From Synechococcales cyanobacterium bin31.maxbin.ball.101 (GTDB lineage: Bacteria; Cyanobacteriota; Cyanobacteriia; Leptolyngbyales; Leptolyngbyaceae), in the NCBI GenBank assembly GCA_013298165.1, contig JAAFJU010000035.1:1-36549 (forward strand): a stretch of 36,549 nucleotides of DNA, in the 5' to 3' direction. The notes beneath the pieces were generated by a model. It did no database searches and was not told the origin of the DNA. It was given only the letters and a program-made list of their open reading frames with translations. Both the position numbers and the translations under genes were made by a program. The number at the start of each line of letters is the position of its first letter. Position 1 is the stretch's first letter. Below are positions 31,992 through 36,074 of the stretch, one piece after another.

Positions 31992-32059
31992 AACCGATTT
32001 ACTGAATGCCGTCATGTCACGGGTGTAGCGATCGTCTAGGCTGGGGGAGTGCGATCGAT
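31992..32059. repeat. 68-base direct repeat, copy A
   Basis: Copy A matches 32898-32965 in 65 of 68 positions. It begins AACCGATTTACTGAAT and ends near the GGCTGGGGGAGTGCGATCGA block. The two copies flank the HNH module (32059-32757), so they could reflect its insertion or be substrates for its loss by recombination. Confidence 0.85.
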
Positions 32060-32502
32060 TACAAGCCCATTCGTTCTCTCGCAGCCGCAGAAGGATACAA
32101 TCCCCGATCGATCAAAATCTGCCGTTCTACCAAACGATCGCGATCGTTAAACCCCAAAATTCTAGCCGTCGCTTCTCCGATCGCACTGACAGGACTGATC
32201 ACCGCTCCTTCTAGGCAAAAATGGTCACTCCAGAGATCGCGTCGAGGATTATAAAACCTCACAAATTCCTGCGTTTCCCAAATAATAGAACCCACATCAC
32301 TACCTTTATATCGGTTACAAAAAATGCAGGCATGAGCAAGATTCGTCGCATCATTCGGACCACCATGCTTAAGGCTGATAATGTGATCGATCGAGCATCC
32401 AAAAATCGTATCGTCATCATGAATCAAACAATATTCACACAAACGATCGGCACGATTGATCACTAATCTACGCAAATCCTGGGATAAATAAGGACGTTCC
32501 AT
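32059..32502 (-). CDS. HNH endonuclease of a recurrent two-gene module (copy 2)
   Basis: The 147-residue HNH protein has zinc pairs C22-x2-C25 (LCEYC) and C59-x2-C62 (CIFC), catalytic IDHI (38-41) with His40, NLAHAC (54-59) with Asn54, and NRYKG with Asn63. It shares with copy 1 the C-terminal RFYNPRRDLWSDHF and an IGEATARIL segment, so the two belong to one subfamily, although most other positions differ. The small partner gene ends six bases upstream. The gene abuts the 68-base repeat copy A and lies in a repeat-rich region. Confidence 0.88.
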   Translation of the reverse strand: MERPYLSQDLRRLVINRADRLCEYCLIHDDDTIFGCSIDHIISLKHGGPNDATNLAHACIFCNRYKGSDVGSIIWETQEFVRFYNPRRDLWSDHFCLEGAVISPVSAIGEATARILGFNDRDRLVERQILIDRGLYPSAAARERMGL

Positions 32503-32508
32503 ACAACT

Positions 32509-32757
32509 CTATGCTGCGATAAGATGTTGATGAGCACGAGCTTTAGCAAGGCGAAGAAGATGTTCTAACATCATATATTGATCAAGTTCGGCTTTCTCAG
32601 GCGCAGTCAATAGTGAATTTTTCTCACGAAATATCAGATCTGCAACTCGTTCCTTAGCCTCTTCAGACGGCTGAAAAGCAATCAGACTTTTCGGAGTAAT
32701 ACCTGCCGCAATAAAACTAATGATTTCATCATAGGCAGTTGAAGTTTCGATCGGCAT
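32509..32757 (-). CDS. Small helical partner of HNH module (copy 2)
   Basis: The 82-residue all-helical, charged protein is encoded six bases before the HNH gene. EEAKERVADLIFREKNSLLT (28-47) and APEKAELDQYMMLEHLLRLA (48-67), then KARAHQHL, align with the C-terminal half of the partner of copy 1 (its LSEAETAELDRILAEADHLM and LKARALYTL). It lacks the Phd-like N-terminal strand of copy 1, having a different start (SFIAAGITPKSLIAFQPS). The shared part is therefore the likely HNH-binding or regulatory region. Confidence 0.75.
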   Translation of the reverse strand: MPIETSTAYDEIISFIAAGITPKSLIAFQPSEEAKERVADLIFREKNSLLTAPEKAELDQYMMLEHLLRLAKARAHQHLIAA

Positions 32758-33559: not shown

Positions 33560-34579
33560 ATGTTACAGACATCCGCCGAGTACAAAACCTGGATCATCCA
33601 CCTCAAAACACGGCTGCGATCGCTCCAAATGAAAGCCGCCGTCTCAGTCAACGCGGCACTGCTGGAGTTTTACTGGGAACTGGGCGCAGACATTGTGGAC
33701 AAGCAGAAAAATAGTACTTGGGGCGATGGCTTTTTGAAGCAACTGAGTGCTGATTTAATGGCTGAATTCCCCGAGATGAAAGGATTTTCCAAGCGGAACC
33801 TAGAACAAATCCGCCGCTGGTACAGCTTCTATGCTCATGATCCTGAAATTGCGAAACAAGCTGTTGCGCAATTGAGTCAAATTCCATGGGGACATAACAT
33901 CATGATCGTTGCCAAATGCCAATCCACCCAAGAAGCTCTCTATTACGTCGAAAACACGATCGCCCACGGCTGGAGTCGAAACGTCCTCACCCACCAAATC
34001 GAAAGCAAACTTTGGGAACGCGAAGGACGATCGATTGCCAACTTTGCGGCAACACTACCCAAACCCCAATCCGATCTCGCCCAACAAACCCTAAAAGATC
34101 CCTATATCTTCGACTTTTTAACGCTAGACAAAGATTACAACGAACGAGATTTAGAACGGGGATTGATTGCACATATTACGCAATTTCTATTGGAGATGGG
34201 CGCAGGGTTTGCTTATTTGGGGCGGCAGGTAGCGCTTCAGGTCGGCGATCGGGAGTTCTTTTTAGACTTGCTGTTCTACCATACCCATTTGCATTGCTAC
34301 GTCGTCATCGAACTCAAAACCGGAGATTTTGAACCCGAACATGCCGGGAAACTCAATTTCTATCTCAAAGCCGTAGACGAACAACTCCGACGATCGGGCG
34401 ATCAGCCTACGATCGGACTCTTACTCTGCAAACAGCGAGATCGGCTCGTCGCAGAATGGGCGCTGAGTGATGTGAACAAACCTATTGGAATTTCAGAATA
34501 TCAAATTACCCATGATTTACCAGAGGAGGTTCGATCGAGCCTGCCCAGCATCGAACAAATCGAATCAGAACTCTCTTAA
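33560..34579 (+). CDS. YhcG/DUF1016-type PDDEXK nuclease
   Basis: The 339-residue protein has an N-terminal DUF1016 helical domain (about 10-160: NAALLEFYWELGADIVDKQK, GFSKRNLEQIRRWYSFY, IPWGHNIMIVAKC) and a C-terminal PDDEXK nuclease domain. The catalytic constellation is FFLDLLFYH (233-241, Asp236) and VVIELKTGDFEPEHAGKL (248-265, Glu251 and Lys253), with LLLCKQRDRLVAEWAL closing the fold. Such proteins occur near restriction systems and mobile DNA and are thought to act on DNA. It stands among repeats and nuclease genes, with no methyltransferase nearby, so a complete restriction system is not present. Confidence 0.92.
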   Translation: MLQTSAEYKTWIIHLKTRLRSLQMKAAVSVNAALLEFYWELGADIVDKQKNSTWGDGFLKQLSADLMAEFPEMKGFSKRNLEQIRRWYSFYAHDPEIAKQAVAQLSQIPWGHNIMIVAKCQSTQEALYYVENTIAHGWSRNVLTHQIESKLWEREGRSIANFAATLPKPQSDLAQQTLKDPYIFDFLTLDKDYNERDLERGLIAHITQFLLEMGAGFAYLGRQVALQVGDREFFLDLLFYHTHLHCYVVIELKTGDFEPEHAGKLNFYLKAVDEQLRRSGDQPTIGLLLCKQRDRLVAEWALSDVNKPIGISEYQITHDLPEEVRSSLPSIEQIESELS

Positions 34580-34607: not shown

Positions 34608-35027
34608 CTAATTAGACTCAAACGAAAACCGCCGCCGTTTTCCATCAAACTTGATACAACATTGATTCAAAATATCTCGCCCTAAAATCATTCTTTGAGC
34701 ACCACCAATTAGTCTAGCTTCACACGAAAGGACCTTAACACCCACAAAAGAAACTTCCCCGAGAGTAAAACTAACCCGACAGGGATAGCCGATCGTATTT
34801 CCTCCGCCCACACCTGTAATTAACTCCTTCGTCTTCAGCACAGGAAGCTGAAGAATTGAAACAGCCTCAAGTGGAATCAACGTACAATCTGACCCCGTAT
34901 CTAAAAAAGCCTCGATCGGGTATTCGCGTTGACGGCTTTCGTCAGGATGAGCCAATAAAAGATTAAGAATGGGCGCAAATGGAATCGCAAGATTATCTGA
35001 AATCTTTGTGTAAGAATACTCAATCAT
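34608..35027 (-). CDS. Retropepsin-like (clan AA) aspartic protease
   Basis: The 139-residue single-domain aspartic protease has FLDTGSDCTLIP (41-52) with the catalytic Asp43 in DTGS, then GVGGGNTIGYP (flap region) and MILGRDIL (113-120), the hydrophobic-hydrophobic-Gly motif that ends the retropepsin fold. Active enzymes of this size work as homodimers. Its ATG overlaps the stop of the upstream gene (35024-35311) by four bases. Substrates are unknown; the coupled partner is the obvious candidate substrate or regulator. Confidence 0.85.
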   Translation of the reverse strand: MIEYSYTKISDNLAIPFAPILNLLLAHPDESRQREYPIEAFLDTGSDCTLIPLEAVSILQLPVLKTKELITGVGGGNTIGYPCRVSFTLGEVSFVGVKVLSCEARLIGGAQRMILGRDILNQCCIKFDGKRRRFSFESN

Positions 35028-35311
35028 GCATCGATCGGACTGCGAAACGCACCGCCAACGTGGTAAACAGGCTCTTCAACCGTAACCCACTGCATCAGAA
35101 TATCGCGGTAGCCATACTTGTGATAAACCCGCTCCGCCATCGCCCGATCGTCCCAATCATGATCCAAAACTTGCCCATCTTCAAAGGCAACATATTGATT
35201 GAGATAATTTTTCAACAACTCAGGCTTCGTCGCCTCAAAGAGCGATTGTTGGCGATCAAGATACTCTAATCGATCGCGATCAATATATTGGGATAGTTCT
35301 TCCTGTGTCAT
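35024..35311 (-). CDS. Small partner of the aspartic protease (DUF5678-like)
   Basis: ATG 35311 is the start, with AGGAGG nine bases upstream. The 95-residue product has an N-terminal helical part (TQEELSQYIDRDRLEYLDRQ) and a core in which LLKNYLNQYVAFEDGQVLDH is followed by DWDDRAMAERVYHKYG. This resembles the DUF5678 pattern 'L..y.gkyVAfvdGqvi..g.d...l...v...yg'. The gene ends by overlapping the protease gene (ATGA). This pairing of a small DUF5678-type protein with a retropepsin-like protease is, to my knowledge, common in cyanobacteria but without an assigned function. Confidence 0.75.
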   Translation of the reverse strand: MTQEELSQYIDRDRLEYLDRQQSLFEATKPELLKNYLNQYVAFEDGQVLDHDWDDRAMAERVYHKYGYRDILMQWVTVEEPVYHVGGAFRSPIDA

Positions 35312-35414
35312 AAAAAGCAACCTCCTGACGAGTATTTATAAATCTACTCCAGCACACTCAGTAAAACTATTCTAGCGCACCCATTGTTCAATTGATATTC
35401 CACAGGAGCTGCGC

Positions 35415-36074
35415 CTATGACTGCAACGATCGTTTCAATGCCGCCAGCTCCGCATCAATCTCATCCGCCTCACCCAATGCCTCAAATCGTTTTTCCAATT
35501 GATTATCGCTGAGGTCCTTCGCCAGCTCCGCCTGCGCCTCCAAATTCAAAACCTTATCTTCCATATTTTCAAACGCCTTCAAGACATCGCTCGTCCCCGT
35601 CGTATCTAATAGATCCGTCAACTGCAAAGACGCCTCAGCCGATCGTGCCCGAGCAATGTACAGATCTTTCTTATTCTTCAGTTCAATGACTTGACCTTCG
35701 AGCTTCCGAAGATTTTGTTTTAAATTGGCAATCAATTGGAGTTGCTCTTTCTGCTGCAATCCCATTGCTGTCGCCGTTGATTGATAGGCACGGCGACGAG
35801 TCAGCGCATCATGGGCCATCTCCTCATTTCCCTTAGACAGCGCAAGTTCAGCTTTACGGTAGTATTCCTCCGCTTTCGAATTCGCTTGATGCTGCTGCCG
35901 ATCGGTCCGTTTTTGCAACGCGATCGACTGCGCCACTGCCTGCCGAAGATTGACTAGATCCACCTGCAACTTCGCCACAATCTGCTCTAGCTGTTGCTCA
36001 GGATCTTGGCGCTTCGTCAATTGGTCATTGACCGTCGCCTTCAGCACACGGGACATGCGATCGAAAAAAGCCAT
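35415..36074 (-). CDS. PspA/IM30-family protein
   Basis: The 219-residue coiled-coil protein of the PspA/Vipp1 (ESCRT-III-like) family starts at ATG 36074: MAFFDRMSRVLKATVNDQLT, the amphipathic helix that binds membranes, then DPEQQLEQIVAKLQ. Long helices follow (LRQAVAQSIALQKRTDRQQH; LALSKGNEEMAHDALTRRRA, with the conserved GNEE/DAL..R turn). It ends after ELAALKRSL without the extra C-terminal helix of thylakoid Vipp1, so it is the PspA-like paralogue, probably for membrane stress. The 13 extra codons to 36113 do not look coding. Confidence 0.9.
   Translation of the reverse strand: MAFFDRMSRVLKATVNDQLTKRQDPEQQLEQIVAKLQVDLVNLRQAVAQSIALQKRTDRQQHQANSKAEEYYRKAELALSKGNEEMAHDALTRRRAYQSTATAMGLQQKEQLQLIANLKQNLRKLEGQVIELKNKKDLYIARARSAEASLQLTDLLDTTGTSDVLKAFENMEDKVLNLEAQAELAKDLSDNQLEKRFEALGEADEIDAELAALKRSLQS

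Follow-up and report, generated by a model that had tools for sequence, protein, structure and literature searches.

Retroviral proteases are restrained by upstream sequence until they have dimerised. Bacterial retropepsins are described in PMC12239564 as homodimers whose active site lies where the two subunits meet, and one of them, RimB, is known from rhizosphere and plant infection work. Among the phage-defence candidates in PADLOC-DB, PDC-M08 and PDC-M52 each include a retropepsin, and PDC-M52 is common and multicopy in cyanobacteria. A search of the open-access literature (bioRxiv being outside its scope) returned nothing on the function of DUF5678 and no protease toxin or retropepsin held by an antitoxin, and neither PDC-M08 nor PDC-M52 was found in the open-access literature.

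The gene pair analysed here lies in a window of 36,549 nucleotides, the whole stretch of DNA studied, which forms contig C159; the cyanobacterial genome to which it belongs totals 5.4 Mb in 356 contigs. The first-pass annotation had described a small DUF5678-like protein tied by a four-base overlap to a retropepsin-like protease inside a nuclease-rich island. Both open reading frames and the ATGA overlap were confirmed on the minus strand at 34608-35311, and "nuclease-rich island" is a fair description, since a YhcG nuclease and an HNH protein adjoin the pair. The features are as follows.

32059-32502: HNH protein (PF01844, 37.5 bits; weak PtuB-like and IscB-HNH matches)
33560..34579, plus strand: YhcG/DUF1016 PD-(D/E)XK nuclease, convergent with the pair, context only (PF06250, 218 bits; PF17761, 140 bits)
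34608..35027, minus strand: retropepsin-like aspartic protease gene, 139 aa, second of the pair (open reading frame and Pfam)
34893..34901, minus strand: catalytic Asp-Thr-Gly, residues 43-45 of the protease (sequence)
35024..35027, minus strand: ATGA overlap of partner stop and protease start (sequence)
35024..35311, minus strand: DUF5678-like partner gene, 95 aa, first of the pair (open reading frame, ATG at 35311)
35084..35227, minus strand: predicted DUF5678-like core of the partner, residues 29-76, helix, beta-hairpin, helix, strand (AF2 model; hhalign E 2.7e-5)

An in-frame TTG at 35320 would lengthen the partner by 3 aa. The YhcG neighbour is PADLOC PDC-S02 (E 2e-151), and an 82-aa open reading frame directly precedes the HNH protein (window 32059-32757). 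A DUF5678 fusion elsewhere, at L060, also has an HNH remnant as its neighbour, with a small protein upstream of the remnant. Three congeners have proB and ispE after a SPOR-PspA gene and are homologous to the window only as far as the PspA end at 35427, indicating that the pair lies in variable DNA, at a junction. Plasmid searches with the window partner, the window protease, the fused protein L067 and the second-type protease of C126 gave no match, and a search of 2.9 million viral contigs found nothing related to either the fused or the split family; the window proteins thus show no signal of counter-defence or mobility.

The identification of the second gene as a retropepsin-like protease was borne out by matches above the Pfam cut-offs to PF13650 (28.7 bits, cut-off 24.3) and PF00077 RVP (27.1 bits, cut-off 20.7), by the DTG motif and by the best PDB match by sequence, HTLV-1 protease (E 6e-4). 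The protein has a single catalytic motif, FLDTGSDCTLIP, followed by a hydrophobic-Gly motif, MILGRDIL, near the C-terminus, as is characteristic of clan AA retropepsins, and both motifs align with the C-domain of the fused proteins described below. D-T-G was invariant in all six split proteases aligned (alignment A7), and D-S-G in all 14 fused proteins aligned (alignment A6). An AF2 model of the window protease, built from two sequences, had a pLDDT of 29 and was set aside.

The partner matched PF18929 (DUF5678) at 17.8 bits, below the curated cut-off of 23.2, so that the earlier wording "DUF5678-like" was the right one, and profile comparison and the model fold strengthen the link. Ten split partners, taken as an alignment, gave an hhalign E of 2.7e-5 against the N-domain from 14 fused proteins, every one of these 14 scoring for both PF18929 and PF13650, and a split-type homologue in genome G040 exceeds the PF18929 cut-off (26.3 bits). 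The AF2 model of the partner (mean pLDDT 77.5) has helices at residues 3-27 and 29-36, strands at 39-44 and 47-52, a helix at 55-66 and a strand at 72-76. Its best Foldseek matches were DUF5678 proteins of Pandoravirus (E 7e-4, probability 1.00); a PDB fold search with the same model gave nothing at E <= 0.001. From the profile match, the G040 homologue and the model fold, the partner is very likely a divergent DUF5678 relative. No DNA-binding domain was recognised in it by Pfam, which gave only the sub-threshold DUF5678 match, or by NCBIfam, which gave nothing. The anti-CRISPR AcrIF9, the top hit of a second comparison with solved folds, was rejected as a fold relative, its match (Z 2.9, 53 residues at 3.2 A) being at noise level. 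Several pandoraviruses, which are amoeba viruses, have DUF5678 proteins in the Foldseek viral library.

The two halves occur naturally as one protein in other cyanobacteria. PF18929 matched at 43 places in 36 of 292 cyanobacterial genomes, and all 43 were inspected. DUF5678 and an intact retropepsin form a single protein at 22 of these places, mostly of 203-210 aa and in the order partner-protease, and they are intact neighbouring genes at 3. The retropepsin is damaged at 6 places; the copy at L065 has a catalytic Asp-to-Asn change, and the protein at L061 keeps frame and tail with the catalytic core absent. At the remaining 12 places no retropepsin was seen nearby, indicating that the domain has other uses; among them are L225 (1083-2135), where DUF5678 is C-terminal on a response-regulator-like protein, and L226 (1364-1723), where it is C-terminal on a short helical-repeat-like protein. 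In G040, at L048 (562-1752), a 396-aa protein of unknown type ends in a split-type partner, and after it comes a protease that is intact and encoded separately.

In a profile comparison, the split proteases matched the C-domain of the fusions at E 3.9e-6. Codon comparison of two fused pairs gave dN/dS values of 0.09 and 0.15 for the N-domain and 0.18 and 0.23 for the protease; both domains of the fused forms are under purifying selection. The natural fusions make a physical association of partner and protease likely, and, at the level of sequence, the fusions, the profile matches and the purifying selection give good though indirect support for joint action of the split proteins. One group of solitary DUF5678 genes (L056-L058, L062) has dN/dS of 0.28-0.52, one copy containing a stop codon, and for L056-L058, which come from one genus, the changes were too few to tell whether the genes are constrained.

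The split pair recurs within its own genome, which has 5 partner copies (a match at G000:C256, E 0.32, was dropped from the count). The accompanying protease is intact in 3 of them (C159, the window; C354; C312); a frameshift interrupts it at C126, and only a scrap is left at C319. The 4-base overlap is not general in the split subfamily, the gap being 12 at C354 and 0 at C312. At C126:31600-33000 (L018) two pairs lie in tandem, the DUF5678-type pair with the frameshifted protease and an intact M08-like pair (see below) with a 4-base overlap. The partner was found in 5 of 39 relatives, in none of 3 congeners and in at least 4 genomes of a 386-genome phylum sample, in many of which the best 13-14 candidates per genome were scored; the split form is therefore rare and patchy. 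Since intact or decayed copies of the pair turn up at many loci (16 for the split DUF5678 type), it is more than a chance juxtaposition. An intact protease without its partner occurs at 0 of the 16 loci. Protease-first searches found no partnerless intact protease of the split subfamily in 39 genomes, and none in 292 genomes among the best 13-14 candidates per genome that were scored in many of them. The module is thus conserved, and the protease is not found mostly alone, an outcome for which the first-pass annotation had allowed.

Two further types of small partner plus retropepsin were compared with the pair. Among the PADLOC models, the window protease matched PDC-M08B weakly (E 0.0046, 15 bits, to a model that has no curated cut-off) and the partner did not match PDC-M08A; neither protein matched PDC-M52 at E <= 1, and the pair is thus not placed in PDC-M52. 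The M08-like type consists of a short protease after a 76-83-aa partner with a Y..EW(V/L)..GEV..HS core. All 7 intact short M08-like proteases have this partner, 5 of them with the exact 4-base overlap. The window genome contains 11 M08-like partners, 4 with an intact retropepsin, and all 4 of its intact short M08-like proteases are partnered. A protease-first profile search of that genome returned the same 4 intact proteases and one with the active-site half deleted; its other matches were a secreted retropepsin of another kind and two weak ones, to DUF5678-type proteases including that of the window. Alignment of the M08-like partner with DUF5678 profiles is weak, though it keeps the register (hhalign E 4e-4 and 5e-4, probability 31-35%). 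Since the M08-like upstream partners that were tested matched no PADLOC model, they may not be the M08A of PADLOC. Orphan M08-like partners with no live protease in the same genome are L240 (C270:55829-56382), whose protease keeps frame and tail and has lost the stretch with the catalytic DTG, L244 (C188), L238 (C150), L241 (C270:19023), L242 (C29:22222) and L243 (C40).

PDC-M52B was found at 67 places in 38 of 194 genomes, as 48 full proteases and 19 broken ones. A full A-family partner lies directly upstream of 46 of the 48 full proteases, usually overlapping; L135 and L176 are full proteases without a partner. At least one intact M52 partner gene or pair is present in the window genome. L129 (G126), L133 (G046) and L160 (G138) each have two M52 pairs that differ in subtype and lie within 1-3 kb of each other, arranged head to tail or convergently. 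The one weak plasmid match of the L064 protease, in Pseudanabaena, proved to be an M52 pair and was discarded. A separate retropepsin family of ~150 aa (MGAVRVKVKLTNAIDE...; L088, L089, L090, L092, L095, L098, L101, L103) is widespread in cyanobacteria; no small partner was seen beside it, and it is apparently solitary. Because PADLOC-DB already lists small partners with retropepsins as phage-defence candidates (PDC-M52A/B; PDC-M08B), the earlier expectation of a new type of module was too strong.

We then classed the loci by which half had survived. By profile search of both parts, the 16 loci of the split DUF5678 type comprise 6 with both genes intact, 7 with only the partner intact, none with the reverse and 3 others (L043, half a partner and no protease; L044, at a contig end; G026, a protease remnant only). 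The M08-like type occupies 18 places, 7 with both genes intact, 9 with an intact partner and a broken or absent protease, none with the reverse and 2 set aside (L245, at a contig end; L236, with a stop in the partner itself). Over both types the one-sided losses therefore stand at 16 to 0, the partner being kept and the protease broken or gone. Under a model in which each one-sided break strikes the two genes in proportion to their length, p is 0.026 for 7 of 7 in the split type, 0.016 for 9 of 9 in the M08-like type and about 4e-4 together, values that are not exact probabilities because loci within a genome are related; when only visible protease remnants are counted, 7 of 7 losses (7 to 0) fall on the protease (p 0.03). 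Orphan partners are full length with low pairwise dN/dS (0.08 for L041/L042; 0.16 for L243/L244), the time since orphaning being undated. The asymmetry does not extend to all three partner types: M52 losses stand at 6-7 to 2 (p 0.36-0.45), with no excess beyond gene length. The losses in the split and M08-like types are as expected if the protease is the liability.

We consider it an evenly balanced proposition that the partner is a dedicated controller of a dimeric retropepsin, most likely restraining it, and that the two form one functional unit. The small retropepsin would be active only as a dimer, and the dedicated DUF5678-like partner would bind and control it. The partner would be translated first and, since its stop overlaps the protease start, the protease would always be made in its presence. 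In the fused forms the partner domain stands just before the N-terminal strand of the protease, which would place it near the dimer platform of the known retropepsins covered in PMC12239564. Restraint could then act by blocking dimerisation or the cleft, and a stress such as infection might release the protease, so that the unit would work like a toxin-antitoxin pair or a zymogen-like switch whose dangerous half is the protease. Restraint is the simplest account because it covers the coupling, the fusion, the multicopy patchiness and the one-sided loss together. Fusion to a protease is unusual for an antitoxin and counts against restraint, as do the DUF5678 places without a protease, the lack of bias in M52 and the weaker p value for visible protease lesions; judged by sequence, the fused forms would be equally compatible with a regulated enzyme and with a toxin-antitoxin pair.

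In the main rival, which is possible though we hold it doubtful, the protease would be a regulatory enzyme with one or a few specific targets and the partner a subunit that activates or aims it, acting as a dimer-stabilising chaperone or as a substrate adaptor, with nothing toxic or restrained. This rival predicts binding as restraint does; the two differ in whether the partner raises or lowers activity and in whether the protease is toxic. The one-polypeptide fusions, often at chromosomal places common to congeners (L080-L083), speak for it; purifying selection on both halves fits a stable enzyme with a regulatory domain, and DUF5678 on the proteins at L225 and L226 looks like a binding module. 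The 16-to-0 excess of protease losses over partner losses, however, is not expected of an activating subunit, and neither is the patchy multicopy presence (5/39 relatives, 0/3 congeners, 5 + 11 partners in the window genome). Those same losses might be ordinary decay viewed through a partner-first search, with the partner a substrate or by-stander, which we regard as improbable: 5 of the 7 split-type orphans were first found by partner-seeded search, the absent proteases may never have existed at those loci, and the solitary DUF5678 group described above is not clearly constrained, but protease-seeded searches gave no intact partnerless protease in the two related types, and the orphan partners, though undated, are full length with low dN/dS. 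On what such a unit would be for, anti-phage defence, in which infection frees the protease to cut a host or phage protein, is a tentative suggestion. The sister arrangements PDC-M52A/B and PDC-M08B are PADLOC phage-defence candidates, the YhcG neighbour is PDC-S02, and the pair occupies variable DNA where congeners have proB-ispE next to PspA. Against this, PADLOC candidates are assigned by guilt by association, with no experiment found in the open-access literature; the window protease is weak against PDC-M08B and the partner matches neither A component; and the lack of viral-contig or plasmid relatives leaves no signal of counter-defence or mobility.

If the partner does restrain the protease, the pair would belong to a bacterial family of proteolytic switches with a retroviral-type enzyme, and this would suggest why these genes decay asymmetrically. 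DUF5678, a family without a stated function, would gain a concrete, testable role in controlling or aiming a retropepsin, and because nature offers both fused and split forms, the mechanism lends itself to testing. More speculatively, cyanobacteria may have a large class of proteolytic toxin-antitoxin-like modules, in which retropepsins are held by small antidotes lying upstream, with two or more folds among them: the helical M52A type and the DUF5678-like one, which is either split or fused. The protease would then be a liability that is lost repeatedly, the antidote being kept, perhaps to guard against sister proteases, and the window genome would contain 16 antidotes of the DUF5678-like types for 7 live proteases.

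Compared with known systems, the window protease resembles RloA/RimB of Pseudomonas and APRc of Rickettsia in being a single-domain clan AA enzyme with one DTG, whereas RloA is secreted and no small partner is described for it in the accessible part of PMC12239564. The partner shares with DUF5678 (PF18929) the core motif, the model fold and the place before a retropepsin, but falls below the curated cut-off. In PDC-M52, too, a small gene immediately precedes that of a ~139-aa retropepsin and in most cases overlaps it; the M52 partner, however, belongs to a ~72-aa helical-looking family unrelated to DUF5678 by any search here. PDC-M08 is alike in its short retropepsin, the 4 intact members in the window genome each being preceded by a partner of 76-81 aa that overlaps by the same 4 bases, but the window protease reaches only E 0.005 against the B component. 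By these sequence comparisons the pair appears close to PDC-M52 without being a member, and its membership of PDC-M08 is unproved. Type II toxin-antitoxin pairs are likewise two small coupled genes, dispensable and patchy, and the pair shares with them a small first gene that overlaps the second, multicopy and patchy presence and a first gene that outlives the second. It differs from them in that fused forms are common and the partner has no recognised DNA-binding domain, which in a type II antitoxin gene is usual, not universal. By this analogy we propose that the pair may work like a toxin-antitoxin system or a zymogen switch, as an undescribed subtype linked here to two PADLOC phage-defence candidates.
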